Assembly (NCBI GenBank): GCA_020852855.1
Contig: JADZAA010000005.1
Span: forward strand, 1 to 36,859
From: Bacteroidota bacterium
GTDB taxonomy: Bacteria; Bacteroidota; Ignavibacteria; Kapaibacteriales; UBA961
DNA length: 36,859 nucleotides
Direction of reading: 5' to 3'
Below are positions 7,168 to 28,420 of this stretch, one piece after another (within the stretch, counting starts at the first letter, position 1; each line of letters begins with the position of its first letter). The position numbers were made by a program, and so were the translations under genes. Under the pieces are notes generated by a model. That model did no database searches and was not told the DNA's origin. It saw nothing but the letters and a program-made list of their open reading frames with translations.

Positions 7168-7311
7168 TAGCAATTATGAGAAAACAGGTGTCTGACGGAA
7201 ATGTCGGATGAACCGTCGTTTTATGTAAAATTTGGCATAAAGGTCTACGCTACGTAATTTACCGAAAAAAAATGCAACAGAAGTCAAAAAACCTCATACA
7301 ATTCCCCAGTA
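7168..7311. other. Divergent intergenic region between the arabinofuranosidase gene and pdxH
   Basis: This 144-bp spacer must hold the promoters for both divergent genes. It contains a short inverted repeat (GACGG/CCGTC, around 7195-7217). It also has a near match to the Bacteroidota -7 element (TAAAATTTG, one base too long between TA and TTTG) oriented toward pdxH. Neither is strong enough to call a promoter. Confidence 0.3.
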
Positions 7312-8047: not shown

Positions 8048-9829
8048 ATGGACGTTATACTCGAAGTAAAAAATTTAACTACGGAATTTCGCGCAGAGCG
8101 TCAAGTCGTAACTGCCGTCAATAATATAAGTTTTTCGTTGCGGCGCGGAAAAACTCTTGGCATTGTAGGCGAGTCCGGCTCGGGCAAGTCCGTTACTTCG
8201 CTCTCGATAATGCGCCTTATACCCGACCCTCCGGGGAAAATAGTCGGCGGGCAGGCTTTATTTACGGAAAAGGGCGGCGAGCAGACCGATTTGCTTGCAT
8301 TGCCCGAATATCAAATGCGCAATTATCGCGGCAATCGCATTTCGATGATTTTTCAAGAGCCGATGACCTCGCTAAATCCGGTGTTCCGTTGCGGCGACCA
8401 AATTATCGAGGCAATTATGCTGCATCAGAAATGCAACAAAGACGAAGCCTGGCAAAAAACGCTGCAACTTCTTAAAGAAGTTCAACTGCCGCGCCCCGAA
8501 ACTATGATTTACCAATATCCGCATCAGCTTTCCGGCGGGCAAAAGCAGCGCGTGATGATTGCAATGGCTATGTCGTGCAATCCCGATATTCTTATTGCCG
8601 ACGAACCTACGACTGCGCTCGATGTAACGGTGCAGGCTACGATTCTGGACTTGATGCGCGATTTGCAAAGTAAAAGGGATATGAGCATTATGTTCATTAC
8701 TCACGATTTGGGCGTGGTTGCCGAAATTGCCGATGAAGTTATCGTAATGTACAAAGGCGCGATAGTCGAAGCCGGCTCTGTATTGCAAATCTTTGAGAAT
8801 CCGCAGCATCCTTACACCAAAGGACTTCTTGCATGCCGTCCGCGATTGGATAAAAAATTGAAAATTTTGCCTACTGTGCGCGATTTTATGGAGGAAACGT
8901 CCGACGGCGCGATAATAGAACGCGAAAACGTTTCCATTGATGAAAAATCAATAGCATTCACAAGCGAGGAAATAATTGCAAGGAACGAAAAATTATTCGC
9001 AAAAGAGCCATTGCTCAACGTAAAAAATTTGGAGGTGCATTTTCCTGTGAAAACAGGGGTTTTCGGTGCAACAAAGGGATATGTGAAAGCGGTCGACGGT
9101 ATTTCGTTCTCCGTTATGCCCGGCGAAACACTTGGGCTTGTGGGCGAGTCCGGTTGCGGAAAAACTACTACGGGACGCGCTATTTTGCGTCTTATAGAGC
9201 CAACCGGAGGCAGCGTAATATTCGACGGAAAAAATATAAGAGATTTATCGAGAGGCAACTTGAAAAATTTGCGAAAAGATTTTCAAATTATTTTTCAAGA
9301 CCCGTACAGTTCGCTGAACCCGCGCTTGTCCGTTGGCGGCGCAATAATGGAAGTTCTTAATGTACATAATATTATGACCAGCGAAAAAGAGCGACGGGAT
9401 TACGTGTCTTATTTATTGGAAAAAGTTAATTTATCACCGCATCATTTTTATAATTATCCGCATGAATTTTCCGGCGGTCAGCGTCAAAGAATTTGCATAG
9501 CCCGCGCATTGGCATTGAAACCGAAATTTCTGATTTGCGACGAGTCCGTTTCCGCACTCGACGTATCGGTGCAGGCGCAAGCGTTGAACCTGCTCGTTTC
9601 GTTGCGCAACGAATTTAATTTGACGTATATTTTTATTTCTCACGATTTATCGGTAGTAAAATTCATTTCCGACAGAATCGCTGTTATGAGCAAAGGCAAA
9701 ATCGTGGAAACAGGATATGCAAATGATATTTACGAGAATCCAAAAGAAGAATATACCCGAAACCTCATCGAAGCTATTCCAAAAGGCTCGATAGACGAGA
9801 TAAAATTGCGGAAAGGATTCGCCGCATAA
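8048..9829 (+). CDS. Fused dual-ATPase subunit of a dipeptide/oligopeptide ABC transporter (DppDF/YejF/GsiA type)
   Basis: I take the ATG at 8048 (593 aa); an upstream in-frame TTG at 8024 is less likely. Two complete ABC domains lie in tandem. Domain 1 has Walker A GESGSGKS (41-48), signature LSGGQKQR (from 161) and Walker B LIADEPTTALD. Domain 2 has Walker A GESGCGKT (366-373), signature FSGGQRQR and Walker B LICDESVSALD, where Ser replaces the usual Pro. Each domain ends with the peptide-transporter extension (YTKGLLAC / YTRNLIEAIP). This architecture powers import of oligopeptides, glutathione or nickel-peptide complexes from the inner face of the cytoplasmic membrane. No permease or binding-protein gene lies beside it, so its partners must be elsewhere. 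The substrate is unknown. Confidence 0.93.
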   Translation: MDVILEVKNLTTEFRAERQVVTAVNNISFSLRRGKTLGIVGESGSGKSVTSLSIMRLIPDPPGKIVGGQALFTEKGGEQTDLLALPEYQMRNYRGNRISMIFQEPMTSLNPVFRCGDQIIEAIMLHQKCNKDEAWQKTLQLLKEVQLPRPETMIYQYPHQLSGGQKQRVMIAMAMSCNPDILIADEPTTALDVTVQATILDLMRDLQSKRDMSIMFITHDLGVVAEIADEVIVMYKGAIVEAGSVLQIFENPQHPYTKGLLACRPRLDKKLKILPTVRDFMEETSDGAIIERENVSIDEKSIAFTSEEIIARNEKLFAKEPLLNVKNLEVHFPVKTGVFGATKGYVKAVDGISFSVMPGETLGLVGESGCGKTTTGRAILRLIEPTGGSVIFDGKNIRDLSRGNLKNLRKDFQIIFQDPYSSLNPRLSVGGAIMEVLNVHNIMTSEKERRDYVSYLLEKVNLSPHHFYNYPHEFSGGQRQRICIARALALKPKFLICDESVSALDVSVQAQALNLLVSLRNEFNLTYIFISHDLSVVKFISDRIAVMSKGKIVETGYANDIYENPKEEYTRNLIEAIPKGSIDEIKLRKGFAA

Positions 9830-9924
9830 ATCCTACCGAGTTTTTCTAAATTAAAAATAATTTTTTACGGTGTTTTATTCTTTGATTTTACAGCCATAAA
9901 TTACGGCATTTTAACATCAAGCCG

Positions 9925-10698
9925 ATGATTCGCTTCAACAGTCCGATTAAAAACTTTGCCTACTTTTGCTATCGCTGGATAGCACCCGTTATTGACCCGA
10001 TAAAATTACTGCGTTCAATACCGAATTATTTTGGTTTCTTCGCAGATTGGTTGCGCTATAAATCGCTTGACGGTGCAGAGCGGGTGAAATTATCGGACTT
10101 ATGGCCGAATATTCACGACAAAACTTCGACTACGCCATTTTTACGCCATTATTTTTACCAAGATGTATGGGCGGCGCGGAATATAGCGCAGACGGGCGTT
10201 GTAAGCCACGTTGACGTAGCGTCACGTATTGATTTTGTAGGATTTCTTACTTCTGTTACTCACGTAACTTTTATTGATATTCGGCCGCTCGAGGCCGACT
10301 TGCCGAATTTTACGGGCAAAGCGGGCAGCATTCTGGCGATGCCGTTTGCCGACGGCGAAATAGCGTCGCTGTCATGCCTGCACGTGGCCGAGCATATAGG
10401 CTTGGGGCGTTATGGCGACCCACTCGACCCGCAAGGAACAATAAAAGCCTGCAAAGAATTGGCGCGTGTACTGGTGCCGGGAGGGCGGCTTTATTTTTCA
10501 ACTCCGATAGGCGCACCGCGCTTATGCTTCAATGCGCATCGTATTCACAGCGTAGATATGATTTTAGAGTATTTTTCCGACCTTACGCTCGTTCGATTGG
10601 ACGGCATTGACGATGCAAACCGCTATCACGACAATATTGACCGCTCTTTGCTCGACGGTGCAAATTATGCTTGCGGGCTGTTTATTTTCACAAAATAG
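9925..10698 (+). CDS. DUF268 family protein (methyltransferase-like fold)
   Basis: This 257-residue protein has the DUF268 pattern, with a SAM-methyltransferase-like arrangement. DVASRIDFVGFL (97-108) stands where the first strand and glycine loop would be, FIDIRPLE (116-123) where the acidic strand-2 residue would be, and SILAMPFADGEIASLSCLHV (135-154) follows. The hallmark HVAEHIGLGRYGDPLDPQG covers 153-171. LARVLVPGGRLYFSTPIG resembles the late methyltransferase strands. The first loop is not a classical GxGxG, so SAM binding is plausible but unproven. Relatives are often found in polysaccharide or LPS gene clusters, but nothing here supports that context. The N-terminus is hydrophobic/aromatic without a clear signal peptide. 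The gene converges with the hydrolase gene after 20 bp. Confidence 0.75.
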   Translation: MIRFNSPIKNFAYFCYRWIAPVIDPIKLLRSIPNYFGFFADWLRYKSLDGAERVKLSDLWPNIHDKTSTTPFLRHYFYQDVWAARNIAQTGVVSHVDVASRIDFVGFLTSVTHVTFIDIRPLEADLPNFTGKAGSILAMPFADGEIASLSCLHVAEHIGLGRYGDPLDPQGTIKACKELARVLVPGGRLYFSTPIGAPRLCFNAHRIHSVDMILEYFSDLTLVRLDGIDDANRYHDNIDRSLLDGANYACGLFIFTK

Positions 10699-14319: not shown

Positions 14320-16005
14320 ATGGCTGAGTCGCCTTTACAACAAGCGCGTAACTTCTGGGGAAAATTATCGCGCATACAGAAACTTACCATTGCCGGAGTT
14401 GTCTTGCTTGCAACTGTGGGAATTATTGCTGTGGCATTGGGAACAAATGCCGATTCCAAAGCGGTATTGTTCTCGGATGTCGACCAAAAAGACGCGGCTG
14501 TTATAGTGGAAAAACTCAAAGAAAGAAAAATAGAGTACGAACTTGCAAAAAACGGAACTGCCATACTTGTTCCGCAAGAGGCCGTCTATGAAACGCGATT
14601 TGCACTTGCCGCCGAAGGGCTTCCGCAAACGGGAACGGTAGGCTACGAGATATTTGATAAAACAAATCTCGGAATGTCGGATTTTGTACAAAAATTAAAT
14701 TACCGTCGCGCACTCGAAGGCGAGCTGTCGCGCACGGTAAATTCTATTGAGGAAGTTCATAAATCACGTGTTCATATAGTAGTTCCTGAAAAGGCATTGT
14801 TCGATAAAGACCAGAAAAAGCCTACTGCATCTGTAATATTGCAATTAAAATCGGGGCGTAGCGTAAGCAAAATAAATATTGAAGGCATACAAAATCTTAT
14901 TGCGGGAAGTGTGGAGGGAATGGATCCCGGCTCGGTTACGGTAGTCGACCAGAAAGGTCAGATTCTTTCGGAAATTCCGCGCGATAAAAATACACTTGCC
15001 GGTATGACCTCTACGCAATATGAATTGCAACAGAAAATAGACCAATACTTGACCTCGAAAGCGCAAAGTATGCTGGACGGCGTGATTGGCGCCGGTAATG
15101 CAATGGTGCGTGCTACGGCAGAATTGGATTTTACGCAAATAGAAAAAACTACCGAAGATTACGACCCGGATAAGCAGGTGGTGCGCAGTGAGCAAAAAGT
15201 AGACGAAACTTCCCGCTCGGCCGATTCGCTGAATTATCCGGCAACCAATTCGGCAAGCCAGCGCGGAAATGTTATCACAAATTATGAAATATCAAAAACT
15301 ATAGAAAAAGTTGTTTCCAACGGCGGCGGCATAAAACGCCTGACCGTAGCGGCTCTAATTAACGGAAATACGAAAATAATCGAAGGCGAAAATCCAACTT
15401 TGGAATATAAGCCGCGCACGCCGGAACAAATGGATCAACTGAAAAAAATCGTTATGAATGCCGTTGGCTACGACCCGTCGCGCAACGACCAAATCAGCAT
15501 AGAAAATATTCAGTTCGACGCAACACAACAGGAAGAAGAGCTTAAGCAACTGAAAGGCTTGCGCCTGCCGATGACTACGGAGGAGATTATCGAAAAAGTA
15601 TTTATCGGTCTGGCTATGCTTCTGGCTATATTTATGATACGCAAATTGTTCGCTTCGCCGGAAGTTCGCCGCCGCATTGAATATGCTCTTGCTCCTGCCG
15701 ATGAAATACAGCCTGCGTTGGCAGCCTTTACGCCGGAAGAGCAACAGCTGCTTTTGGCGGCCGGCGAAGTTCCGCAATTAACTCCGCAAGGTGAATTGCC
15801 CGCGCCGGACGACCGCGAGGCTATTGTGGCACGTGCCAAGGCTAAGGTTGAAAAATCCATGCAACGCGATATGAGTGAAGATGAATTAGTTTCGCTCGAA
15901 ATGCGCAATCGTGTTCTGAAATATATCGAAGAAAGTCCGGGCGATGCCGTGCGCTTATTTAAAATAATGATGGCCGGCGACGAAGAGGCTGCAAAAAAAC
16001 GGTAG
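14320..16005 (+). CDS. fliF: Flagellar MS-ring protein FliF
   Basis: This 561-residue inner-membrane protein forms the MS ring. TM1 lies at about 23-43 (LTIAGVVLLATVGIIAVALG). YscJ/FliF ring-building domains follow, with DQKDAAVIVEKLKERKIEYE, GTVGYEIFDKTNLG and LNYRRALEGELSRTVNSIEE, and then RVHIVVPEK. A periplasmic beta-collar region covers about 240-400. TM2 is about 428-446. The cytosolic tail has ERMRN-like segments (SLEMRNRVLKYIEESPGDAV and RLFKIMM) that bind FliG. The length is normal. The ATG at 14320 is the first in frame. Only 41 bp separate it from fliG. Confidence 0.97.
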   Translation: MAESPLQQARNFWGKLSRIQKLTIAGVVLLATVGIIAVALGTNADSKAVLFSDVDQKDAAVIVEKLKERKIEYELAKNGTAILVPQEAVYETRFALAAEGLPQTGTVGYEIFDKTNLGMSDFVQKLNYRRALEGELSRTVNSIEEVHKSRVHIVVPEKALFDKDQKKPTASVILQLKSGRSVSKINIEGIQNLIAGSVEGMDPGSVTVVDQKGQILSEIPRDKNTLAGMTSTQYELQQKIDQYLTSKAQSMLDGVIGAGNAMVRATAELDFTQIEKTTEDYDPDKQVVRSEQKVDETSRSADSLNYPATNSASQRGNVITNYEISKTIEKVVSNGGGIKRLTVAALINGNTKIIEGENPTLEYKPRTPEQMDQLKKIVMNAVGYDPSRNDQISIENIQFDATQQEEELKQLKGLRLPMTTEEIIEKVFIGLAMLLAIFMIRKLFASPEVRRRIEYALAPADEIQPALAAFTPEEQQLLLAAGEVPQLTPQGELPAPDDREAIVARAKAKVEKSMQRDMSEDELVSLEMRNRVLKYIEESPGDAVRLFKIMMAGDEEAAKKR

Positions 16006-16046: not shown

Positions 16047-17072
16047 ATGAAAGACATAGAAAAAATAGATTTCAAGGCTTTGACCGGACGGCAACGAGTG
16101 GCTATTTTGCTGATGACGGTAGATATGGATGTGGCGACGCATATTTTTCGTATGTTTGACACCCGCGAAGTAGAGCAAATTTCCGTAGAAATTACCAATC
16201 TGAAAGGTGTACCGGACCGAATTGTGCAACAAGTAGTCGAGGAATACTTCCAAATGATGACGGCGCAAGGCTATATCATGGAGGGCGGGCTCGAATATGC
16301 CACTATGATTTTGCAGAAAACGTTCGGAATGGAAAAGGCCAAAGAAATTATCGAAAAAGTGAGAATGTTGACTGCTATCCGCGGTTTTGATATTCTGAAA
16401 AAAGCCGACCCGCAACAACTTGCAAGTTTTTTGTCCAAAGAGCATCCGCAAACCGTTTCTTTGATACTTTCGCATTTGCCGGCAGACCAATCGGCCGAAA
16501 TTCTGAATGAATTTTCCGACGAACTGCGTTCGGACGTTTTGATGCGTATCGCTACTTTGGGTAAGGTATCGCCGCAAGTCGTTAATGAAATCGAACAAGT
16601 AGTCGACCAAATCGGTGAATCTGTTCTGGCGCAGAATCTGGCGAAAACCGGCGGTGCGCATTTGGTTGCCTCTATCTTGAATAAAACTACTACCGCTACC
16701 GCAAAAACATTGCTTGAAAGTATCGAGGAAAAAGACCCTAACATGGGAATGGAAATTAAACGATTGATGTTCCTATTCGAAGATATTGTGCTGATAGACG
16801 ACAAAGGTATTCAGCGTTTGTTGCGCGATATTGATAAGCGTGACCTGGCTTTGTCGCTAAAAGTCAGCGACGAGAAAATACGCGAAAAAATATTTAAGAA
16901 TATGTCGGAGCGCGCTTCGGCCGTTATCAAAGAAGAGCTCGAATTTATGCCGCCGGTAAAACTCAAAGATGTAGAAGCTGCGCAAATGCGAATAGTGGAA
17001 GTAGTGAAACGGCTCGAAGAACGCGAGGAAATCGTCATTGCCGGGCGCGGCAAAGACGCAATGTTCGTATGA
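16047..17072 (+). CDS. fliG: Flagellar motor switch protein FliG
   Basis: This 341-residue rotor protein has all three FliG domains. The N-terminal domain begins LTGRQRVAILLMTVDMDVA and packs on the FliF tail. The middle domain carries the EHPQTVSLILSHL motif (132-144), which contacts FliM. The C-terminal torque domain has FLFEDIVLIDD and then IQRLLRDIDKRDLALSLK, the charged helix that faces the MotA stator. FliG converts ion flow through the stators into rotation and sets direction. The length and domain order are canonical. fliH follows after 25 bp. Confidence 0.97.
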   Translation: MKDIEKIDFKALTGRQRVAILLMTVDMDVATHIFRMFDTREVEQISVEITNLKGVPDRIVQQVVEEYFQMMTAQGYIMEGGLEYATMILQKTFGMEKAKEIIEKVRMLTAIRGFDILKKADPQQLASFLSKEHPQTVSLILSHLPADQSAEILNEFSDELRSDVLMRIATLGKVSPQVVNEIEQVVDQIGESVLAQNLAKTGGAHLVASILNKTTTATAKTLLESIEEKDPNMGMEIKRLMFLFEDIVLIDDKGIQRLLRDIDKRDLALSLKVSDEKIREKIFKNMSERASAVIKEELEFMPPVKLKDVEAAQMRIVEVVKRLEEREEIVIAGRGKDAMFV

Positions 17073-17097: not shown

Positions 17098-17790
17098 ATG
17101 ATAAAGCGGCTTAGTATACGTTCGGTACGCCCGGTGAATCGTGTGGAAATTCTGCGTGGCGGAGATGACGACGTTGTAGAAGCACCTATTTTTGAAGATC
17201 TTGCGCCGCCGTCTATAGAAACGGTTGTTGAAGAGCCGATGATACGGATAAGCGATGCCCGCAAGCAAGTACAAAACGGATATGACCGCGGATTTGCCGA
17301 CGGAAAACAAGTAGCCACCGCCACAATGCTTGTAGAGGTGCAACGGCAGTATGAAGTTCTGAAAAATTTCGACACATTGCTTGACAATCTTCACGATGAA
17401 TTCACAAAATCGTTTGCCGTAATGGAAAATACGGCCGTCGAACTTGCATTGATTGCAGCGGAAGCCGTTATCGGGGAAGAAGTACGCCGCGATAAATCTG
17501 CCGTTATCGCTCAGATTAAAAAATCGCTTGAGGCATTGCGCGGAGCCGACAGCATTACAATTCGGTTGAATACAGACGATTACGATGCTTTGGCGCAAGC
17601 AAAAAGTACGTATATAGATGACCCGATTAAAGCGGCGAAAGTGAAAATTATTGCCGACGATTCCGTGGAGTCCGGCGGTTGCATAGCGGAATCTTCGCTT
17701 GGCTCCATAGATGCGCAACTACGTTCCCAATTTCGAAGAATTGCAGAGGCTTTTACGTCAAATATCAAAAAACCGTTCGCAGAAAATTGA
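17098..17790 (+). CDS. fliH: Flagellar export ATPase regulator FliH
   Basis: This 230-residue protein lies between fliG and fliI, the normal place of fliH. The N-terminus is polar and acidic. A central helical region (about 57-110, including QNGYDRGFADGKQVATATML) is followed by the FliH/HrpE-like C-terminal domain: LALIAAEAVIGEEVRRDKSA, then NTDDYDALAQAKSTY and SGGCIAESSLGSIDAQLRSQ. FliH forms the peripheral stalk that links FliI to the C-ring. The C-terminal SGGCIxE...G.iDA pattern is diagnostic. The stop is 3 bp before the fliI start. Confidence 0.93.
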   Translation: MIKRLSIRSVRPVNRVEILRGGDDDVVEAPIFEDLAPPSIETVVEEPMIRISDARKQVQNGYDRGFADGKQVATATMLVEVQRQYEVLKNFDTLLDNLHDEFTKSFAVMENTAVELALIAAEAVIGEEVRRDKSAVIAQIKKSLEALRGADSITIRLNTDDYDALAQAKSTYIDDPIKAAKVKIIADDSVESGGCIAESSLGSIDAQLRSQFRRIAEAFTSNIKKPFAEN

Positions 17791-17793
17791 TAT

Positions 17794-19110
17794 ATGATAA
17801 CGACCGAAGGCATATTGACAAAATATCGTTCGCTTGCGCACGAAGCTGCCGCCATATTGCCTATAGGCAGAGTAACGCGAGTAATGGGATTGGTCATAGA
17901 GTCGGCCGGACCATACGCGCCGATAGGCGAGATTTGCGTTTTGCGCGATAAACGCGGATCCGAAGCGGCGCGTTGCGAGATAGTCGGATTTCGAGATAAC
18001 TTCATACTTTCAATGCCGATAGGTGAAATTCGCAGTATAGAGCCGGGCATGGAAATAGTAGCGACAGGCGCAGGATTAACCGTAAGTCCGAGTAATGATA
18101 TGCTGGGACGTGTATTAGACGGATTAGGCAATCCGATTGACGATAAAGGCGAACTTCCGCCCTCGTCGCGACGTAGCATATACGCACAACCGCCGAACCC
18201 TATGTCGCGTCGGCGTATAGTCGAGCCAATCGAAACCGGCACACGCGCCATTGATGGCCTGCTGACTATGGGCAAAGGCCAGCGTATCGGGATTTTTGCC
18301 GGCTCAGGAGTGGGAAAATCAACTCTGATGGGAATGATAGCCCGCAATACCAACGCCGATGTGAATGTGATTGCACTTATAGGAGAGCGCGGCCGCGAAG
18401 TGCTGGATTTTATTGAAAAAGACCTTGGAGAAGACGGCCTGAAACGCTCGGTTGTTATTGTATCTACAAGCGATACGCCGCCGCTGGCGCGCATTAAAGC
18501 GGCATATGTTGCCACGACCATAGCCGAATATTTCCGCGATGAAGGACTTGATGTTATGATGATGATGGACTCGGTTACACGGCTTGCAATGGCGCAACGC
18601 GAAGCCGGATTGAGCATAGGCGAACCACCTACCACAAAAGGATATACGCCGTCGGTTTTTGCAATGTTGCCGCAACTGATGGAACGCGCCGGAACCTCGG
18701 CGGACGGTTCTATAACCGCACTATACACCGTATTGGTGGAAGGCGACGATATGAACGAGCCGATAGCTGATGCAGCACGAGGAATCTTGGACGGGCATAT
18801 AGTATTAACGCGCAAATTAGCCGCTATGGGACATTATCCGGCTATTGATGTACTTGAAAGCATAAGCCGCTTGATGGGCGATGTAGCCGCGCCCGAGCAT
18901 CGTCGTATTGCCCGACAATTCAAGGAGATGATGGCTGCCTATCGTGAGGCAGAAGACCTGATTTCGGTCGGTGCATATCAGCGCGGCAGCAATGCACTCG
19001 TGGATAAGGCTATTGATAGAAAAAAAGAAACCGATGATTTTCTTCGGCAGGATTACGACGAATATTGTGCGATGCGAACCGCAATCGAGCAACTTGGTAA
19101 GGTTGTATAA
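17794..19110 (+). CDS. fliI: Flagellum-specific ATP synthase FliI
   Basis: This 438-residue homologue of the F1 beta subunit energises flagellar type III export. Walker A is GSGVGKST (170-177), with IALIGERGREV, the Walker B region VMMMMDSVTRLAMAQREAGL, GEPPTTKGYTPSVFAMLPQL and LVEGDDMNEPIADAARGILD, followed by GHIVLTRKLA. The C-terminal helical domain ends with KETDDFLRQ. The length is canonical. The last base of its TAA stop is the first base of the fliJ ATG, which points to coupled translation. Confidence 0.97.
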   Translation: MITTEGILTKYRSLAHEAAAILPIGRVTRVMGLVIESAGPYAPIGEICVLRDKRGSEAARCEIVGFRDNFILSMPIGEIRSIEPGMEIVATGAGLTVSPSNDMLGRVLDGLGNPIDDKGELPPSSRRSIYAQPPNPMSRRRIVEPIETGTRAIDGLLTMGKGQRIGIFAGSGVGKSTLMGMIARNTNADVNVIALIGERGREVLDFIEKDLGEDGLKRSVVIVSTSDTPPLARIKAAYVATTIAEYFRDEGLDVMMMMDSVTRLAMAQREAGLSIGEPPTTKGYTPSVFAMLPQLMERAGTSADGSITALYTVLVEGDDMNEPIADAARGILDGHIVLTRKLAAMGHYPAIDVLESISRLMGDVAAPEHRRIARQFKEMMAAYREAEDLISVGAYQRGSNALVDKAIDRKKETDDFLRQDYDEYCAMRTAIEQLGKVV

Positions 19111-19544
19111 TGGCCAAAAATTTCCGATTTACGCTTGAATCTCTGCTAAAATTGCGCTCTTATACGGCAGAAATAAAAAAAACGGCATTGGCGGAAATTA
19201 TTCGGTTGCGCGAAGACCAAGACAGACTTATTCAAGAAAAACAGCAATATCTTGTATCAATTACGGATACCGGATATGCACGAACAACAGTTGCGGGAGC
19301 AATGCAGGCGGCACACACACACCGTGAATCCGTGAAAGGCGAAATAACCGTTCTATATCGGAAACAGAAGCAACTGTCGGAAATAGAACAGCTTAGGCGA
19401 AAAGAATATTCAGAAGCCTTGAAAGAGGTTAAAGTCTTGGAAAAGCTTAAAGAGCGGCAGAAAGATGCGTATAGGGCGGAGATGAACCGTGAAGAGCAAC
19501 AGTTTCTGGACGAAACTGCACGGCGCATCGCAAGCATTAAATAA
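19110..19544 (+). CDS. fliJ: Flagellar export protein FliJ
   Basis: This 144-residue, almost fully helical coiled-coil protein overlaps fliI by one base. The start FRFTLESLLKLRSYTAEIKK and the later heptads (RREQ-like EQLRRKEYSEALKEVKVLEK) match FliJ. FliJ sits in the centre of the FliI hexamer like the gamma subunit of F1 and promotes ATPase-export gate coupling. The length is normal. Assignment rests on position plus the N-terminal F.f.LesLLklR pattern. Confidence 0.93.
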   Translation: MAKNFRFTLESLLKLRSYTAEIKKTALAEIIRLREDQDRLIQEKQQYLVSITDTGYARTTVAGAMQAAHTHRESVKGEITVLYRKQKQLSEIEQLRRKEYSEALKEVKVLEKLKERQKDAYRAEMNREEQQFLDETARRIASIK

Positions 19545-19571: not shown

Positions 19572-20123
19572 ATGAATTCCATACTTCAAACATTCATGGC
19601 GATAGCCGTAATTTTCACCGTAGCATTCGGTTTGCTTGCTGCGGTTTATATAATGCGTCCAGAGTGGTTGGGATTGCCTTCGGAATTATCGGCGGATTCC
19701 GTGCAACAGCAGCCGACAACAATCTCTTTGGAAGTACCCGCTTACAAGTTACTGGTAAAAGAGCGTGATTCGCTAAAAAAAACGCTTGCCAAAACGACGG
19801 ATACAGCGAATAAATATCAGGCGAATTACAAGGCGGCAATTCAAGATGTTTCAGATTTGCAACAGCGGCTATCCGTTCAAGACCAAGAGTATATGCGAAA
19901 AATGGATTCGCTGGAAAAATTTAACTGGAGATTATTTGCTAAAATTTACGACAAAGCCGAACCGAAAGAAGTAGCCGAAATTCTATCGGAACTTGACGAA
20001 CGCGATGCTGCTTTTATTCTGAAAAGCATGAAGCCGAAGGTTGCGGCAAAAGTATTGGAAAATATAGCACCCGAAACAGCCGCGGCTATTATGGCGTTAA
20101 GCAGAACGCAAAGGTTACAATAA
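19572..20123 (+). CDS. MotE-like flagellar protein (MgtE-N/FliG-like C-terminal domain)
   Basis: This 183-residue protein has one N-terminal membrane segment (about 9-30), a long coiled coil (about 60-120), and a C-terminal helical domain with KAEPKEVAEILSELDERDAA, then FILKSMKPKVAAKVLENIAP and AAAIMA. This is the MotE / YlxF arrangement, in which the C-terminal part resembles the MgtE intracellular N domain and FliG middle domain. MotE was described as a chaperone for the stator-associated protein MotC. YlxF holds the same fliJ-fliK position in Bacillus. Whether it serves a stator protein here is inference. Start at ATG 19572. Confidence 0.8.
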   Translation: MNSILQTFMAIAVIFTVAFGLLAAVYIMRPEWLGLPSELSADSVQQQPTTISLEVPAYKLLVKERDSLKKTLAKTTDTANKYQANYKAAIQDVSDLQQRLSVQDQEYMRKMDSLEKFNWRLFAKIYDKAEPKEVAEILSELDERDAAFILKSMKPKVAAKVLENIAPETAAAIMALSRTQRLQ

Positions 20124-20184
20124 ATACTATCGCGGATTCAGGCAGGCAAGGATGCCGCCGTACCGCTCGCAAGGAAGCGAAATT

Positions 20185-23100
20185 ATGACTCTGAAACTCA
20201 CGTCGGAACTGCCCAAACTCCTGCAATTTGCGGGAATACCCAATGCGACGATTTCTTCGCCGGCCGCCATAGATTTCTCTGATATTTTGGCGACGGAATA
20301 CGATGGAACGGCCTATGTAAATTCGTATGCCCGTATCCCGGCCGACACGCAGTTTGCCCAGATGCAAATTGACGGTAATCCGCTTCCGCAAGCCGTTGCT
20401 TTTTCCGAATATTCTTGCTCGCTCGACAAAACAAACAGTGAAAATAATGCGAATAATAACGCAACTGTATTCGTAGAAAACACGTCTTTAACGCAGGCGG
20501 AACTTTCTCGGATTATTCTTCCGAACTCTGCCGTTTCGGTTGTAGAAACTGCAAACTCCGTAATTCTTATAGCACCTCAAAATACGCTTGCCACGCTGAA
20601 AAAAATAACGCCGAATAATTCGGAATCCGCAATTGTAAATTTGCAAGGCATTGATATAGAGGTGATTCCGACAGGCGATACATCTGCGATGCAGTCAAAA
20701 TATCGGGATTTCTTCGATAAATATATTACAAATACGGCAAATATGCCGCTTAGTGAAAGTATTGCAGTAAAAAATGTCGCAAGCGATGATTCCGAAATAA
20801 ACACATCGGCATATACATCGCCGACTAAGGCGCAAAACACCGTAGAATTTCCAGATATAAACGCGAAATTAAATACTGTAAAGACCGATAAAATTGTTTG
20901 GCAGGCGGATAGCATTGCGGTTGACTCGGCTAAGAGCGAACAATTTGTAAACAGTAAAGGTTTATCTGATTACGAGCCTTTGCAAAATAAAATAGATAAT
21001 ACCGAACGGGATATTGTTGGAATCGGAATAAATACAGACAATTCTAATTTAATATTACAGGCACCGGAAAACGCTAAGAACAACAAATTTGAAGATAATA
21101 ATTCGCCTGTATCCGAAATTATCGCCGCAGCCGATAATTTAATCAATTCCGCGGATATTGCCGCAACGCCAAATGCAGGGTTGCCGCCCAAATCAGATTT
21201 ATCGAAAAATAATGCAGGCGAACAAATTTTCGCACGGGTAAAAGGCAAAAATGCCGTTGCGTCGAATTTAACGGTGCATAATATTTTGAACGCCGGCGAG
21301 ATGCCCGTTCCACACGACGGAATAATATATTCCGAGAGATATCAATTAAAAACCACGTTTTCTGCAAAAGACTATCCGCAAAGCCCGTTTTTATCAGACG
21401 GTAAAGAGATAAGTGCCGAAATACCGATTACTTATCAACAAATTGCAAAGACGAATAATAAGTCGGAGGTTGATGTAGCTGCCTACAATAAAAAGGATGT
21501 TTCTTATACAGTAGAGCAATCTGACGCTGCTGCTTTGCAATCATCCGTAATGCTTCGAAACTTTGACGGAAATACGATTTTTCAAGCAGACGATACACAA
21601 AAATCAGATGATAATTCTGCCGGAAATACATTCGGTCAAATGTCCGGTAATTTAATTAAAAACAGCAACAACGTATATATACAGAGCAATAAGCCGTTGC
21701 ATAACTTCACGGTAAAAGCTGAGCATTCCGAGAAAAAAAATACTCACTCTTTGAGCGCACATTTATCGCCGAATGTACCGCCGGATTCACGTGAATTACG
21801 GACGGATATTTCCCCGACCGACGGCAGCTATATTTCCGATATTGAAAACGGCAACGATGAGGATACCGATGTTTTTAATAAAGCCTCCGCTACAACAGAA
21901 AACATAGGAATCTCGGTTGAGTTAACGACAATAGGCAATGCAAAAATTTCTAACCTCGCATCAGAGGTAGAACTACCGTACAATAATGAGGCTCACGTTG
22001 TAAACGATAATGGCATAAAAACAAAAAATAATGCCGAATTCTTGCAATACAAAGAAAATGCGCCGCCAACAGATAATTCTGCAAATGATTTGTTGTATAC
22101 ATTGTCTCGTGAACAAGGGCGTATATCTGCAAATAGCGAGCCGGAAGAAGAGGTGAAAAAACAAGATACCGGTAATGTTAAAGTTCCCGACATTTACAGA
22201 AGTAATCTGCAAAATAATTTGCCGATTAATATTGAGGACATTTCTTCCGGCGGACAATTATCGAACGTGCGCCCGGAATTGTTGATTACGTTACATAATG
22301 CGTTGGCACAAATTCCTATCGAAAATATATCGGATATTGAAGCAATAATCATTTCCGTTCCTAAAAATACGGCTGATAATACAGTTGGCAATACGATGCA
22401 AAATTCGGCGGATATTTTGCCGAGCGAAACAGCGGCCGCAACTAAACCGGAAATACAGGTAAAAAGCGATAATAGTAATTTCAAACATCAGAATTATTTT
22501 ATTGGCAATAATTATTCGGTATCTAAAATATCGGACATTACTTCTGAGCCTGCTGTCTTGCCGTTGTCGAATACAGACGTTCCTATGCAAAAATTGGGGT
22601 TGCGGCAGACCGACGGGCAAATTGTGCCGCAACATCTTGTTGAGCCGCAATTCAAAGATAAAAGCGAAATGTTGCCTGAAAAGCTCGTAAGCAATAGCGG
22701 CAAAATTGCCTCTGTGCGAAGTTATGAATTATTCGACAAGACAAAACAAATTACGGAGAATAAGCCCGTAATACGTTTGAATAATGCCGCTGACACTACA
22801 ACGTCATTACCTATGAAAGACGGACGCAGACAGCAGGTCCTTTCGCCGTTGCAAGCTGTTGCAGCAGCCTCAATACCTTCCACGTATTTCTCCGTTCCGA
22901 CTGCCGCCGGTAATTTGCAGAGCAACACGTCCGACAAATATCCGGTTTTGCAACAGAACATCGGCGACATGCCCGACGCGCAACAATTAGTTTCCGATAA
23001 ATACGCGCCTGAAATTATTTACACCGCGACACAACGACCTGTTGCTGCCGTTTTGTCGGGCACAGAGTTTTTCAATGAGATCGCTTATAGTCCTGAAACG

Positions 23101-25671
23101 CAAATCGGCAATATATCGAAAGAGGTAAGTGAAAAGTCGTTGCACCGACCAGCGGTACAAATGAATGATATAACGACTCAAAATAACCTCTCAATAAATG
23201 AAATTCTGTCGACGGACGCTACATTTTCTCAAAGTACGTTAAACAAATATATTGCAGCAGAAAATACAATAACGAAAAATGATAGAAATACAGATATAAC
23301 AGATGCACCATCATACGATTACGCAACAGAATTTATAAATTCTGTAAATAATGAAAGTAACGATACGAAATATGCACGAGAAAATGTACGCAATACCCAT
23401 TTTATGTCAATAAATAATAATGAACAATATAGTAACAAGACGTTGGGAGTAACAGCAAAAGATGGCGTATCTAGCGGTGGTAATGAAATATATCGCGGCA
23501 ATATATTGACTGACAGTGTATCAAGTTCGCAATCGTTCGCAACTTATAGTTCCGAAACAGCAGAGAAAATAAATAAACAAGATAATTCCTCTAAATTATC
23601 CGGCTTAACGGAAAATAAGGACGAACAAAATCGAGTGATAAAAAATAACGATGCTCCTGCAATTAAAACAACCATACCTGATGCAATCTCGTTGCAAACT
23701 ACTGCTGCGATAAACGATGCTTCCGTCGGATATTATTCGGAAAATACGGACGACGAACAAATAGCGCAGACTTTAACAAAGCAGAATAACGATAATTACA
23801 TAGGAAAGATAACACAGCCGATATCATCGGGAAATATTGTTGCAAATTCATCTAAGTATATTTTCGAACAAAATGTTGCAACGCTGAAAATTACGGACGA
23901 ATCTTCTGACAGGCATCATACTGCGGAAAATACGCCGGTAAATAAAACTGTATTTTTATCGAATGACAGCACCGAAATAGAACCAAATATAAAAACAGTA
24001 AATACCGTAAAATCCGAAGTTTCCGGCAAACCGGCAAATACTGTCTCGATAGATTCCGTTCGTGAAGACGAAGCGCTTGCAGCGGCAGAAGTATTGCCGA
24101 GAGCAGAGCAAAAAACGGAGTCGAAAATACCGGCAAAATTACCGTCCGAAAACCACTCAACCAGTAAATTACCGGCTGAAAATACCGTAAAATCCGAAGT
24201 TTCCGGCAAACCGGCAAATGCTGTCTCGATAGATTCCGTTCGTGAAGACGAAGTGCTTGCAGCGGCAGAAGTATTGCCGAGAACAGAGCAAAAAACGGAG
24301 TCGAAAATACCGGCAAAATTACCGTCCGAAAACCGCTCAACCAGTAAATTACCGGCTGAAAATACCGTAAAATCCGAAGTTTCCGGCAAACCGGCAAATA
24401 CTGTCTCGATAGATTCCGTTCGTGAAGACGAAGTGCTTGCAGCGGCAGAAGCATTGCCGAGAGCAGAGCAAAAAACGGAGTCGAAAATACCGGCGAAATT
24501 ACCGTCCGAAATAAATCGTTCCAACGGTGCCGATATTTTTAATTCGCAACCGACAGCAATAAATGATTTTGAGATATCCGAAAATCCGTCGGGTAGTTCA
24601 CCTATGCCGAGAACTGAAAATACAGCACTTCATTCTTTGGAAACTCGCCCGCAAGTACAAGCTGAAAAGGTTTTCAGAACTTACAATACGACGGCTCTGA
24701 ACGACTATACTTTGCCGTCATTGTCAGTTGCGGCGGATTTGTCGGGCGATGATTTATCGGATATTTCAAGTGCATCTGCCGCGCTGAATAAGCAATCTGT
24801 ACGCATACTCCAGAGTGGGGCAACGCAATCTGAACCCATGTTGAAAAAATCACGGCGTACTATTACTGAAGATGTAAAAATACTATCGTCTGCCGAAAAC
24901 TCTGTAATTACCGAAACAGAACGGCAAATCGCACCTGCGCAACAATCATTTGATAATAATCGGAGCTATGAACGACCATTTTTCAATGGTAACGGTTATC
25001 TGCATGGGCGTGAAAACATATCGCCATTTGCACTAAATACGGCAGACCGTGCCGAAGTGCCTCAACACACAGAACAGCAACAAACGACCTCAGAAATGCA
25101 GCCGGCTGCTCTTTTTTATGAACAGCCTCAGATTTTTCAGCAGTTGAATATTGCGCCGTTGATGCGCACATTGCCTAAGAGAAACATGATACAGGAATTT
25201 CGACAAGTGGACGCAACGCGAACTACAGAGTACGCAGTACAGCTTGCAGAAAACACGCCGTCCGGTTCTAAGTCTTCGGTTGTATTGCACTTGCGGCCGG
25301 AGTCTCTGGGTGCGGTAACGCTTTCGGTAGCGGTGAATGGATCCGGCGTGTCGGTTGCAATAAATGTAGAAACGGCTGATGCGCGGCAGGCTGTAGCGGC
25401 ACAGGTTTCATCGTTGCGCGAGCAATTGGCAAAATCGGGTATTTCGGCGCAATCTATTGAGGTTCGTCAGCAGCCGCAAGATGCCACGTTCCAGCAGTCC
25501 GGCGGTTTTATGCAATCGCATGGGGGCGGCGGGCGCGATGACCAAGAGCAACGCCAAGCATATTTGCGTTCGTTCAGATTTGCCGCCGACAGGCATGAGG
25601 TTGCTGAGAATACCGATAAATCGGCAAAACAGCGAATTATTTCTGCCGGAGCAGTTGAACAATATATTTAA
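20185..25671 (+). CDS. fliK: Giant flagellar hook-length control protein FliK
   Basis: I choose the ATG at 20185 (1828 aa), which has AAGGAAG 8 bases upstream; the ATG at 20152 would add 11 residues. The C-terminal substrate-switch domain (about 1676-1766) is clearly FliK: YAVQLAENTPSGSKSSVVLH, then LRPESLGAVTLSVAVNGSGV and VAAQVSSLREQLAKSGISAQ. It ends with a Gln-rich and Gly-rich tail. FliK is exported, measures the hook and then flips the export gate from hook to filament substrates. Typical FliK proteins have about 400-700 residues. Here about 1670 residues of Asn/Ser/Thr/Asp-rich, low-aromatic sequence precede the switch domain, with one Cys (C78) and one Trp (W239) that I can find. Residues about 1273-1442 are a near-identical 60-residue tandem repeat. 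It follows the motE-like gene and precedes flgD. Confidence 0.92.
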   Translation: MTLKLTSELPKLLQFAGIPNATISSPAAIDFSDILATEYDGTAYVNSYARIPADTQFAQMQIDGNPLPQAVAFSEYSCSLDKTNSENNANNNATVFVENTSLTQAELSRIILPNSAVSVVETANSVILIAPQNTLATLKKITPNNSESAIVNLQGIDIEVIPTGDTSAMQSKYRDFFDKYITNTANMPLSESIAVKNVASDDSEINTSAYTSPTKAQNTVEFPDINAKLNTVKTDKIVWQADSIAVDSAKSEQFVNSKGLSDYEPLQNKIDNTERDIVGIGINTDNSNLILQAPENAKNNKFEDNNSPVSEIIAAADNLINSADIAATPNAGLPPKSDLSKNNAGEQIFARVKGKNAVASNLTVHNILNAGEMPVPHDGIIYSERYQLKTTFSAKDYPQSPFLSDGKEISAEIPITYQQIAKTNNKSEVDVAAYNKKDVSYTVEQSDAAALQSSVMLRNFDGNTIFQADDTQKSDDNSAGNTFGQMSGNLIKNSNNVYIQSNKPLHNFTVKAEHSEKKNTHSLSAHLSPNVPPDSRELRTDISPTDGSYISDIENGNDEDTDVFNKASATTENIGISVELTTIGNAKISNLASEVELPYNNEAHVVNDNGIKTKNNAEFLQYKENAPPTDNSANDLLYTLSREQGRISANSEPEEEVKKQDTGNVKVPDIYRSNLQNNLPINIEDISSGGQLSNVRPELLITLHNALAQIPIENISDIEAIIISVPKNTADNTVGNTMQNSADILPSETAAATKPEIQVKSDNSNFKHQNYFIGNNYSVSKISDITSEPAVLPLSNTDVPMQKLGLRQTDGQIVPQHLVEPQFKDKSEMLPEKLVSNSGKIASVRSYELFDKTKQITENKPVIRLNNAADTTTSLPMKDGRRQQVLSPLQAVAAASIPSTYFSVPTAAGNLQSNTSDKYPVLQQNIGDMPDAQQLVSDKYAPEIIYTATQRPVAAVLSGTEFFNEIAYSPETQIGNISKEVSEKSLHRPAVQMNDITTQNNLSINEILSTDATFSQSTLNKYIAAENTITKNDRNTDITDAPSYDYATEFINSVNNESNDTKYARENVRNTHFMSINNNEQYSNKTLGVTAKDGVSSGGNEIYRGNILTDSVSSSQSFATYSSETAEKINKQDNSSKLSGLTENKDEQNRVIKNNDAPAIKTTIPDAISLQTTAAINDASVGYYSENTDDEQIAQTLTKQNNDNYIGKITQPISSGNIVANSSKYIFEQNVATLKITDESSDRHHTAENTPVNKTVFLSNDSTEIEPNIKTVNTVKSEVSGKPANTVSIDSVREDEALAAAEVLPRAEQKTESKIPAKLPSENHSTSKLPAENTVKSEVSGKPANAVSIDSVREDEVLAAAEVLPRTEQKTESKIPAKLPSENRSTSKLPAENTVKSEVSGKPANTVSIDSVREDEVLAAAEALPRAEQKTESKIPAKLPSEINRSNGADIFNSQPTAINDFEISENPSGSSPMPRTENTALHSLETRPQVQAEKVFRTYNTTALNDYTLPSLSVAADLSGDDLSDISSASAALNKQSVRILQSGATQSEPMLKKSRRTITEDVKILSSAENSVITETERQIAPAQQSFDNNRSYERPFFNGNGYLHGRENISPFALNTADRAEVPQHTEQQQTTSEMQPAALFYEQPQIFQQLNIAPLMRTLPKRNMIQEFRQVDATRTTEYAVQLAENTPSGSKSSVVLHLRPESLGAVTLSVAVNGSGVSVAINVETADARQAVAAQVSSLREQLAKSGISAQSIEVRQQPQDATFQQSGGFMQSHGGGGRDDQEQRQAYLRSFRFAADRHEVAENTDKSAKQRIISAGAVEQYI
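24001..24510 (+). repeat. 180-bp in-frame tandem repeat inside fliK (2.8 copies)
   Basis: The units start at 24001, 24181 and 24361, each with AATACCGTAAAATCCGAAG. The third is cut at about 24510. Units 1 and 2 differ at only four positions that I can see across 180 bp, and unit 3 has a similar level of identity. The unit is exactly 60 codons, so copy-number changes keep the frame. Each encodes TVKSEVSGKPANTVSIDSVR followed by EDE, AAAE and a Lys/Glu/Pro-rich segment. The near-identity at synonymous sites implies recent duplication. Confidence 0.97.
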
Positions 25672-25709: not shown

Positions 25710-26414
25710 ATGGCGACAGAAGCGATAGATTCCAAATCCGGTGCGGCGGAAGTTTTTGCTCGGATTCGTCAGCAACAGCAAGCAAAAACAGCAAATAAAG
25801 AATTGGGGAAAGACGAGTTTCTCAAATTACTGACTTATCAGATGAAAGCTCAGAATCCTCTTAAACCGCAAGACGGACAAGAGTTTGCGGCACAACTGGC
25901 TCAATTCAGTCAATTAGAGCAATTAGCCAATATAAAGCAATTACTTGCTGACCAATCGAAAGCATCACTGTTTCTTACGCAGACTGTGGCAAACTCAAGC
26001 GCACCCTCGTTTATAGGTAAAACAGCGCGGGCAACTGCACAGCAGGTATATTCCGACGGCTCTACGCCTATAGATTTCGGCTGGAATTTCGACGAAAATC
26101 AGCAATCGGCTTCGGTGGAAATCAAAACTCCGGCGGGTGCTCTAATACGTTCTTACGAATTAACTCCGGCGCAAATTCGTGCCGGTGAGCATACGCTTCA
26201 ATGGGATGGAAAGAACAATCGCGGCGAGAATGTAGGAGTGGGGAAATATGTTGTTTCCATAAAGGCCACACCCTCGACGGGCGGTACGCCGGTAACGGTT
26301 ACGCCTTTTATCAACGGAAAAATAACGGCTGTAAAATTCCGGATAGACGGTAGTGTTGCCGTCATCAACGGATCCGAGATTCCGCTTTCGGATATTCTCG
26401 ACGTTTCACTTTAA
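25710..26414 (+). CDS. flgD: Flagellar hook-capping protein FlgD
   Basis: This 234-residue protein has the FlgD N-terminal scaffold motif (LGKDEFLKLLTYQMKAQNPL, then KPQDGQEFAAQLAQFSQLEQ). A Tudor/Ig-like module follows, with SFIGKTARATAQQVY, GWNFDENQQSASVEIKTPAG and HTLQWDGKNNRGENVGVGKY, which corresponds to the FlgD Ig-like domain. FlgD caps the growing hook and helps FlgE polymerise; it is removed when the hook is complete. The ATG has AGGAG at good spacing (ATAGGAGCAATC). The length is typical. Confidence 0.96.
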   Translation: MATEAIDSKSGAAEVFARIRQQQQAKTANKELGKDEFLKLLTYQMKAQNPLKPQDGQEFAAQLAQFSQLEQLANIKQLLADQSKASLFLTQTVANSSAPSFIGKTARATAQQVYSDGSTPIDFGWNFDENQQSASVEIKTPAGALIRSYELTPAQIRAGEHTLQWDGKNNRGENVGVGKYVVSIKATPSTGGTPVTVTPFINGKITAVKFRIDGSVAVINGSEIPLSDILDVSL

Positions 26415-26559: not shown

Positions 26560-26949
26560 ATGTCTGAAATTAACGGTGTTAATTTACCGTTTTTGCCGAT
26601 TGGCGGGGCACGCGAGTTAGAGCGCAAGCAACATATCTTTACGAACGATACAAATGATATTCCATCGTTTCGTGATATGTTCGAACGGGAAGCCGGCACT
26701 CTCAAATTCTCGGCTCATGCCAGGGCGCGAATAGCCAGCCGCGACATTTCGCTGTCCGACGACGATATACGTCGGCTTGAGCGAGCAGCCGAGCGGGCAG
26801 AGCAAAAAGGAGGTAAAGACTCGCTTGTGGTATTGCGCGATATGGCGTTCATTGTCAGCGCAACCAATCGCATCGTTATTACGGCTATCGGTGGTGCAGC
26901 AGCAGAAAACATAGTGTTTACAAATATTGATTCTGCGGTATTCGCCTGA
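26560..26949 (+). CDS. Flagellar operon protein of the TIGR02530 type
   Basis: This 129-residue cytosolic protein sits between flgD and flgE, as in many Bacillus/Clostridium-type flagellar operons. The family core is clear: LKFSAHARARIASRDISLSD, then DDIRRLERAAERAEQKGGKD, SLVVLRDMAFIVSATNRIVI and TNIDSAVF. Its molecular role is not established; position suggests hook assembly or its control. It has the best SD sequence of the window, AAAGGAGGTGA at 26543-26553, with the GGAGG core 9 bases from the ATG. The N-terminal ~45 residues (before FRDMFERE) are variable. Confidence 0.85.
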   Translation: MSEINGVNLPFLPIGGARELERKQHIFTNDTNDIPSFRDMFEREAGTLKFSAHARARIASRDISLSDDDIRRLERAAERAEQKGGKDSLVVLRDMAFIVSATNRIVITAIGGAAAENIVFTNIDSAVFA

Positions 26950-27088: not shown

Positions 27089-28420
27089 ATGCCACTAATT
27101 CGTTCACTTACATCGGGTTCAAGTTCCCTGAAAGCACATCAGCAACGCCTTGACGTTATCTCGAATAATATTGCAAACGTGAATACGACGGGCTTTAAGG
27201 CCAGCCGTGCCACTTTCAGCGACCAATTCAGCCAAACTTTTAATCTTGGCAATGCGCCGAGCAATATTGCGGCAGGCGGCATAGGCGGTATTGACCCGTT
27301 GCAAATAGGGCTTGGAGTTAAACTCGGGGCGGTTAAGGTTAATTTTATGCAAGGTGCAATTCAGACTACGAACCGTCCGCTTGACCTTGCATTGCAAGGC
27401 GAAGGCTATTTTGTATTGCGCTATAACGGTCAGGAGCGTTATACCCGCGCCGGTTCGTTCTCGTTCGATACCGACGGCAATCTCGTGGACGGTGCTACAG
27501 GCGCGTATGTGCAGGGGTACAATCTCGAAACAGACAGCCAAGGGCGCGTACTAAAAGATTCCAGCGGCAATAATCGGCTTAACCGCACGGTGACAAATGT
27601 GCAAGTGCCGCCTACGTTCAAATCTGCGCCGCGCCAAACGCAAAGCGTTTCGGTTTCGGGCAATTTGAATGCAGGCTCGGCAACCGGCGATTCGTTCAAT
27701 ACAAGTATTACGATTTTCGATAATCAAGGCGGAACGCATCAACTCAATCTGCGATTCTCGAAAAGTGCTACCGTAAATCAGTTTGATTTGCAAGCAACCA
27801 TTGATAATTCTGCGACTCCTATCGCAGGCGTTCCGGCGACCATAACGTTCAATGACGACGGCACGTTGAATACGCCCCTGGATTTTACGATGACAGCCGC
27901 CGACCTTAATACCGCACTCGCTACTTCCGCGCCGTTCGACGCAACTACACCTAAAAACGTAGTGGTAACTCTGGCAGATTCCGGCAATGTTTTGGGCGGT
28001 TTAACGCAATTTGCCGGACAGAACACCGCAACAGTGCGCGAACAAGACGGTTACGGTTCGGGCGAACTTTCTCAAATCGCCGTTGACCAAGCGGGACGAT
28101 TAGTCGGCTCATTTACCAACGGACAATCGGAACTGTTGGGGCAAGTGGTTATAGGCAAATTCACCAACCCGGGAGGATTGGTGCGTAACGGCAATTCGTT
28201 CTTTAGTGTTTCGCCAAACAGCGGATTGCCTAATTTGGGAACAGCCGTTGAAATTTTCCCGTCAAGCAGCATTTCCAGCGGTTCGCTTGAAGAATCCAAC
28301 GTAGATTTAACCGAAGAATTTACCGACCTGATTTCTACACAACGTGCTTTCGAGGCCGCATCGCGCACCGTTACAATCAGTGACCAATTCCTGCAGGAAA
28401 TAAATCAGTTGAAACGATAA
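27089..28420 (+). CDS. flgE: Flagellar hook protein FlgE
   Basis: This 443-residue protein has the rod/hook N-terminal motif LDVISNNIANVNTTGFKASR and FSDQFSQTF, then RPLDLALQGEGYFVLR and RAGSFSFDTDGNLVDGATGA. A central FlgE D2-like domain has GGTHQLNLRFSK. The C-terminus is SNVDLTEEFTDLISTQRAFE, then AASRTVTISDQFLQEINQL. It polymerises into the hook, the flexible joint between rod and filament. The length and hook-type D2 domain favour FlgE over the shorter FlgG rod protein. A GGAGGG site precedes the ATG. It is the last gene of the cluster before a hairpin terminator. Confidence 0.94.
   Translation: MPLIRSLTSGSSSLKAHQQRLDVISNNIANVNTTGFKASRATFSDQFSQTFNLGNAPSNIAAGGIGGIDPLQIGLGVKLGAVKVNFMQGAIQTTNRPLDLALQGEGYFVLRYNGQERYTRAGSFSFDTDGNLVDGATGAYVQGYNLETDSQGRVLKDSSGNNRLNRTVTNVQVPPTFKSAPRQTQSVSVSGNLNAGSATGDSFNTSITIFDNQGGTHQLNLRFSKSATVNQFDLQATIDNSATPIAGVPATITFNDDGTLNTPLDFTMTAADLNTALATSAPFDATTPKNVVVTLADSGNVLGGLTQFAGQNTATVREQDGYGSGELSQIAVDQAGRLVGSFTNGQSELLGQVVIGKFTNPGGLVRNGNSFFSVSPNSGLPNLGTAVEIFPSSSISSGSLEESNVDLTEEFTDLISTQRAFEAASRTVTISDQFLQEINQLKR

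Follow-up and report, generated by a model that had tools for sequence, protein, structure and literature searches.

The window analysed here is a stretch of 36,859 nucleotides from a Bacteroidota bacterium of the order Kapaibacteriales, whose genome is a draft of 2.8 Mb in 138 contigs and 99% complete. It carries a flagellar gene cluster in the order flgB, flgC, fliE, fliF, fliG, fliH, fliI, fliJ, a gene for an MgtE_N-domain protein, fliK, flgD, a TIGR02530 gene and flgE, of which flgB, fliE, fliG, fliH, fliI and fliJ were named from their translations and position, without a family search (Table 1). The MgtE_N-domain protein occupies what we take to be the place of YlxF in Bacillus subtilis. 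The fliK gene is thus encoded beside the hook genes flgD and flgE, and the order fliI-fliJ-MgtE_N-fliK-flgD-TIGR02530-flgE is kept in relatives. Over the length of the stretches available, the relatives examined share this order around fliK, with two exceptions: in family f6 the TIGR02530 gene is absent or undetected, and in family f5 FlgE was undetected beside FlgD. In another part of the window, the reverse strand at 4885-7173 encodes an arabinofuranosidase-like secreted protein whose end, from a reading of the translation, resembles a type IX secretion sorting domain.

Table 1. Features of the flagellar cluster around fliK (positions in the window).
Feature	Position	Strand	Basis or remark
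fliF	14320-16005	+	family search
fliG	16047-17072	+	translation reading; homologue in same position in relatives
fliH, upstream of fliI	17098-17790	+	translation reading; order in relatives
fliI	17794-19110	+	translation reading; same order in relatives
fliJ, downstream of fliI	19110-19544	+	translation reading; order in relatives
MgtE_N-domain protein, directly upstream of fliK	19572-20123	+	family search
fliK, giant hook-length control protein, 1828 codons	20185-25671	+	alternative start 20152
First ~36 residues of FliK, bearing the export-signal-like F-x-x-x-hydrophobic motif FSDIL (residues 31-35, nt 20275-20289)	20185-20292	+	motif count against shuffles
fliK central insert, about residues 37-1670, predicted disordered, Cys/Trp/Phe-poor	20293-25194	+	
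Tandem array in the insert, 180-bp (60-residue) unit, 2.8 copies	24000-24511	+	
FliK C-terminal export-switch domain, folded, residues ~1671-1767	25195-25485	+	Pfam, AlphaFold2 pLDDT ~90, fold match
FliK tail helix, conserved, residues ~1783-1807, around EQRQAYLRSFRFAADRH	25531-25605	+	AlphaFold2 and conservation
flgD, hook cap	25710-26414	+	family search
TIGR02530 flagellar operon protein	26560-26949	+	NCBIfam search
flgE, hook protein, 443 aa, ordinary size	27089-28420	+	family search

The fliK reading frame runs without interruption inside the flagellar operon and can be read from either of two ATG codons, at 20152 (1839 aa) or at 20185 (1828 aa); the latter, which is the start given in the first-pass annotation, is preferred because a Shine-Dalgarno-like AAGGAAG box stands just 5' of it. 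Flg_hook (PF02120) was the sole Pfam domain found in the 1828-residue protein; it covers residues 1692-1766 and scores 57.1 bits, the Pfam cut-off being 29.8. No Pfam or NCBIfam domain was matched in the insert, and no NCBIfam model matched the full protein at E <= 0.01; NCBIfam may or may not include a general FliK model, and such a match is not a defining feature of FliK. In the AlphaFold2 model of residues 1101-1828, the only confident unit was the one at ~1671-1767, plus the tail helix, and a Foldseek search with this C-terminal unit returned just two matches below 0.001, namely 2RRL (FliK-C, 8e-5) and 5CUK (the PscP switch domain, 1e-4). The first-pass annotation, made from the letters alone, had described an uninterrupted frame, a clear C-terminal FliK domain and about 1670 residues ahead of it; all three points held, the frame being open over its 1828 codons, the domain scoring above its cut-off with 2RRL and 5CUK as nearest folds, and the folded unit starting at ~1671.

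At the other end of the protein, a motif of the type FxxxPhi, the form of the gate recognition motif, was found as FSDIL. Of 26 N-termini of FliKs in the order, 25 carry an F-x-x-x-hydrophobic motif among their first 75 residues, mostly at residues 31-51, against a mean of 13.7 and a maximum of 21 of 26 when the same residues were shuffled. From its sequence, FSDIL is similar to the gate recognition motif with which early flagellar export substrates dock on FlhB and which in FlgD lies at residues 36-40 (PMC8983047). FlhB is encoded once in the same genome, its NPTH autocleavage site intact, and flagellins are encoded as well. Judged on its sequence and fold, the gene at 20185-25671 is an authentic fliK.

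A second protein of the genome (G000:C123:6427-6651; L063:5218-6699) gave a weak Flg_hook match of 27.8 bits, below the Pfam cut-off, within a frame of up to 493 aa that has a 3-hydroxyacyl-CoA dehydrogenase-like gene on one side and ribD on the other. Short, weak second copies of this sort (about 310-500 aa) are also present in relatives, in Bacillota and in Desulfobacterota, and they presumably recall YlqG of Bacillus. We rejected this second protein as a real ruler on account of its score, its metabolic neighbourhood and the similar copies common in Bacillota and Desulfobacterota.

The composition of the insert was compared with that of the other genes of the window. It contains one Cys where 12.2 were expected (Poisson P about 6e-5), one Trp where 12.8 were expected (P about 4e-5) and half of the expected Phe (P about 3e-6); Gly, Leu, Met and Arg likewise fall below expectation, there is an excess of Asn, Ser, Thr, Pro and Gln, and Tyr is unchanged. 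The near absence of Cys and Trp claimed in the first-pass annotation is borne out by these counts, whereas its description of the insert as low-aromatic stands for Trp and Phe only, because Tyr is not depleted. The structure model that it had proposed yielded no confident fold in the insert: AlphaFold2 predicted no confident structure for residues 1-1200 (mean pLDDT 29), and everything before ~1671 in the 1101-1828 model was coil (pLDDT ~31). Since the alignments had only 6-7 rows, the low pLDDT fits disorder and falls short of proof. A few weak AlphaFold2 elements at residues 61-220 were considered as a hidden conserved domain and rejected, as they were without similarity to other FliKs. Among the giant FliKs, net charge varies by lineage from -112 to +158 and Pro from 2.6 to 12.5%, yet despite this lineage-specific composition Cys is almost absent from all long forms.

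Our survey of the order (Kapabacteria-type Bacteroidota) took in 123 genomes, 73 of them with Flg_hook. Frames of 1724-2414 aa ending in Flg_hook were found in 11 genomes belonging to 7 genera and 4 families; measured from the first start codon, the proteins have 1678, 1732, 1839, 1937, 2041, 2072, 2165, 2215, 2216, 2242 and 2414 aa, the 2041-aa entry ending at a contig edge. Those relatives that bear names are MAGs, under the labels Ca. Kapaibacterium, Ignavibacteria or Bacteroidetes, and NCBI puts Kapaibacterium in Bacteroidota. Most other FliKs of the order are of 320-760 aa and an intermediate group is of about 850-1430, while the giant size extends through entire genera, at about 2.07-2.24 thousand aa for g3 and g8. 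Outside the order, the longest FliK frame within the same class has 1630 aa. For other phyla the comparison is a sample and no census: in about 350 sampled genomes with FliK, the longest frame among those listed has 1256 aa, the longest listed being 851 aa in 45 mixed genomes, 1256 in 79 Desulfobacterota and 966 in 81 Bacillota, and in Pseudomonadota (249 genomes) the longest among the matches listed has 856 aa. The giant FliK is a real and recurrent length class of the order, unseen among the frames listed for the sampled genomes of other phyla, and what had been noted as several times the usual length amounts to four to six times and recurs in relatives.

FlgE has 407-509 aa throughout and is 64-74% identical to the FlgE of the window (12 aligned), so that in the comparison of FliK length with FlgE size, another proposal of the first-pass annotation, FlgE does not scale with FliK. 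In a tree built from FlgE and FlgD, some of whose deep nodes are poorly supported, giant FliKs fall in f1, f9 and part of f4, and the short-FliK genus g7 (443-464 aa) is the sister of the giant f4 genera (1678-1732 aa), a difference of about fourfold; FliK length has therefore changed, up or down, more than once. Sister genus g2 of the window's own family had a Flg_hook match in 0 of 7 genomes, which suggests that flagella were lost within the family.

Sequence divergence is distributed very unevenly along the protein. Between the two species compared in g3, FlgE is 97.7% identical (dN/dS 0.02), FlgD 92.6% and the last 160 residues of FliK 86% (dN/dS 0.07), while the outer parts of FliK have 42-64% identity and the middle ~1400 residues 21-28%, with dN/dS of 0.5-0.7; the same comparison in g8 gave 42-68% identity and dN/dS of 0.4-0.9 for the middle. 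Where pairs of relatives exist, the insert evolves as coding sequence (dN/dS mostly 0.4-0.7). FliK is conserved mainly over its first ~260 residues, over the last ~400 and in the C-terminal domain. BLASTP with the window insert found no significant match to other FliKs, own family included, and similarity between inserts was confined to within genera. Net length differences between congeners are of 26-252 residues, the largest involving the broken copy of genome G006. A random walk of the inferred indels predicts a spread of 22-59 residues, the observed net differences are no smaller, and neither compensating indels nor excess conservation of exact length was detected among congeners; as the net differences equal or surpass the random-walk spread, we make no claim of stabilising selection on exact FliK length.

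Repeats were observed in several of these genes. The tandem copies of the 60-residue unit in the window insert have 97% matches. In genome G057 (L052, CDS nt 643-1604), a 159-bp unit is present 6.1 times in a FliK of 1106 aa, and this appears from the sequence to be the clearest sign of FliK length change through repeat copy number. Two of the shorter survey entries are fragments. In G024 (L043, about 9300-10300), the frame is broken inside imperfect repeats (EPITEDLPKMAAGAEQKVSIEVK...), probably by repeat collapse in the assembly. The fliK of G006 (L035, about 9400-10400) has two in-frame stops ~280 codons from the start in an otherwise continuous frame, which uninterrupted would give about 1420 aa; the stops are either a draft error or the mark of a decayed copy.

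The usual hook is 55 nm long and rises 0.41 nm per FlgE subunit. FliK of Salmonella enterica has 405 aa, with the ruler at 1-207, a linker at 208-267 and the switch at 268-405 (PMC6972891). In this species, FliK variants of 363-785 aa give tightly controlled hooks of 42-135 nm, that is, 0.2 nm per inserted residue, the hook also lengthens with foreign YscP segments inserted in FliK, and swimming is impaired with hooks above about 75 nm (PMC6126814). Extrapolated linearly at 0.2 nm per residue, a calibration that reaches only 785 aa, the 1828 residues would correspond to a hook of 340 nm with some 830 FlgE subunits, and the 2414-aa FliK to one of 457 nm. Limits for the predicted hook would be roughly 270 nm for an alpha-helical chain (0.15 nm) and 580 nm for a fully extended one (0.37 nm per residue; PMC6972891).

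The reading that we place first, and hold to be just on the probable side, is that an authentic secreted FliK uses its insert as a linear tape and gives rise to a giant hook. The Flg_hook match, the FliK fold, the FxxxPhi motif, the position in the hook operon, the NPTH-bearing FlhB and the flagellins of the genome, the Cys/Trp-poor insert with no predicted structure, its evolution as coding sequence, the 11 giant genomes and the lengthening of Salmonella hooks by inserted residues, foreign ones included (PMC6126814), are all in its favour. FliK would be secreted by the flagellar export apparatus while the hook grows, its unfolded insert threading the channel as a measuring tape, and the C-terminal domain would act on FlhB to switch export only when the hook has reached a length that the tape still fills. 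Over most of the tape, the number of residues would count and not their sequence, and the hooks would be several times longer than 55 nm if these rulers behave as in Salmonella. That a whole bacterial group builds hooks of ~300-450 nm by means of secreted rulers of about 1.7-2.4 thousand residues, their length kept and their sequence almost free, we put forward more tentatively, at somewhat short of an even chance. Against a giant hook stands the impaired swimming of long-hook Salmonella, a defect that concerns bundle formation by many flagella; these bacteria, however, may be flagellated differently. Also against it are the net length differences between congeners, which give no sign of constraint on exact length, and the small alignments behind the low pLDDT; the chief doubt is whether so long a chain would be read linearly, linear ruler behaviour being established only up to 785 aa. 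No hook measurement for them was found in the papers searched, and the literature search gave no paper combining FliK with Kapabacteria.

It is possible, although we consider it rather unlikely, that FliK switches export with an insert mostly unread as length, so that hooks are ordinary and only the conserved ends matter; the unread insert would stay coiled in the cytoplasm or be out of the channel by the time the C-terminal domain is tested. The range of FliK within the order (about 320-2414 aa), its ~4-fold difference between sister genera at unchanged FlgE and FlgD sizes, the conservation concentrated at the ends and in the C-terminal domain, and the harm that long hooks do to Salmonella swimming (PMC6126814) agree with this. 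However, no compact fold is predicted in the insert, foreign ruler sequence does lengthen the Salmonella hook (PMC6126814), and an idle insert of >1000 residues is unlikely to stay open in several lineages.

Tandem repeats in several inserts, net length changes as large as a random walk of indels would give, or larger, and the extreme sequence turnover of the insert point in turn to a loose control of the hook, in which replication slippage and repeats let the length of FliK drift and many hook lengths are workable, FliK setting a minimum and a clock or a stochastic switch doing the rest. We regard this as improbable: with dN/dS below 1, and with low Cys/Trp content and polarity persisting across lineages, the insert is not free of selection, and giant length is kept across the whole of g3 and g8. 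An extra secreted function, in which FliK export would carry the insert out to serve, for example, as an adhesive, matrix or surface protein, seems very doubtful; FliK is a secreted substrate in Salmonella and the insert is rich in Asn, Ser and Thr, but no Pfam or NCBIfam domain lies within it and, unlike a conserved adhesin, it has no similarity between genera. An assembly or gene-fusion artefact, the former raised in the first-pass annotation and either one that a draft of 138 contigs might invite, is scarcely credible and was refuted, since independent genomes share the same FliK architecture at the same operon position and the insert evolves as coding sequence in relatives with pairs.

The window FliK has in common with that of Salmonella the family and fold of the switch domain (2RRL), the N-terminal export-signal-like motif and a FlhB partner with NPTH; unlike it, FliKs of the window type are four to six times longer, and the additional ~1400 residues lack predicted structure and are not conserved in sequence outside the genus. 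The injectisome rulers YscP and PscP have a similar C-terminal switch fold (5CUK) and an intervening chain whose length matters, whereas the window gene belongs to a flagellar operon, beside flgD and flgE, and is several times longer. Long FliKs elsewhere (up to 1256 aa listed in Desulfobacterota and up to 1630 aa in the same class) also consist of a long open frame ending in Flg_hook, but they are shorter than the forms of 1.68-2.41 thousand residues concentrated in the order of the window.

The textbook example of a protein ruler is hook-length control, but the linear relation found was tested only at engineered lengths of 310-785 aa and in one peritrichous species. The giant FliKs bear on whether rulers work beyond 800 residues and on whether the 55 nm optimum is general, and the sister genera with a roughly fourfold difference in FliK and the same hook-protein size are a natural experiment on residue number setting hook length. 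The insert itself is a clear case of a chain, predicted to be disordered, that is kept very long while its sequence turns over.
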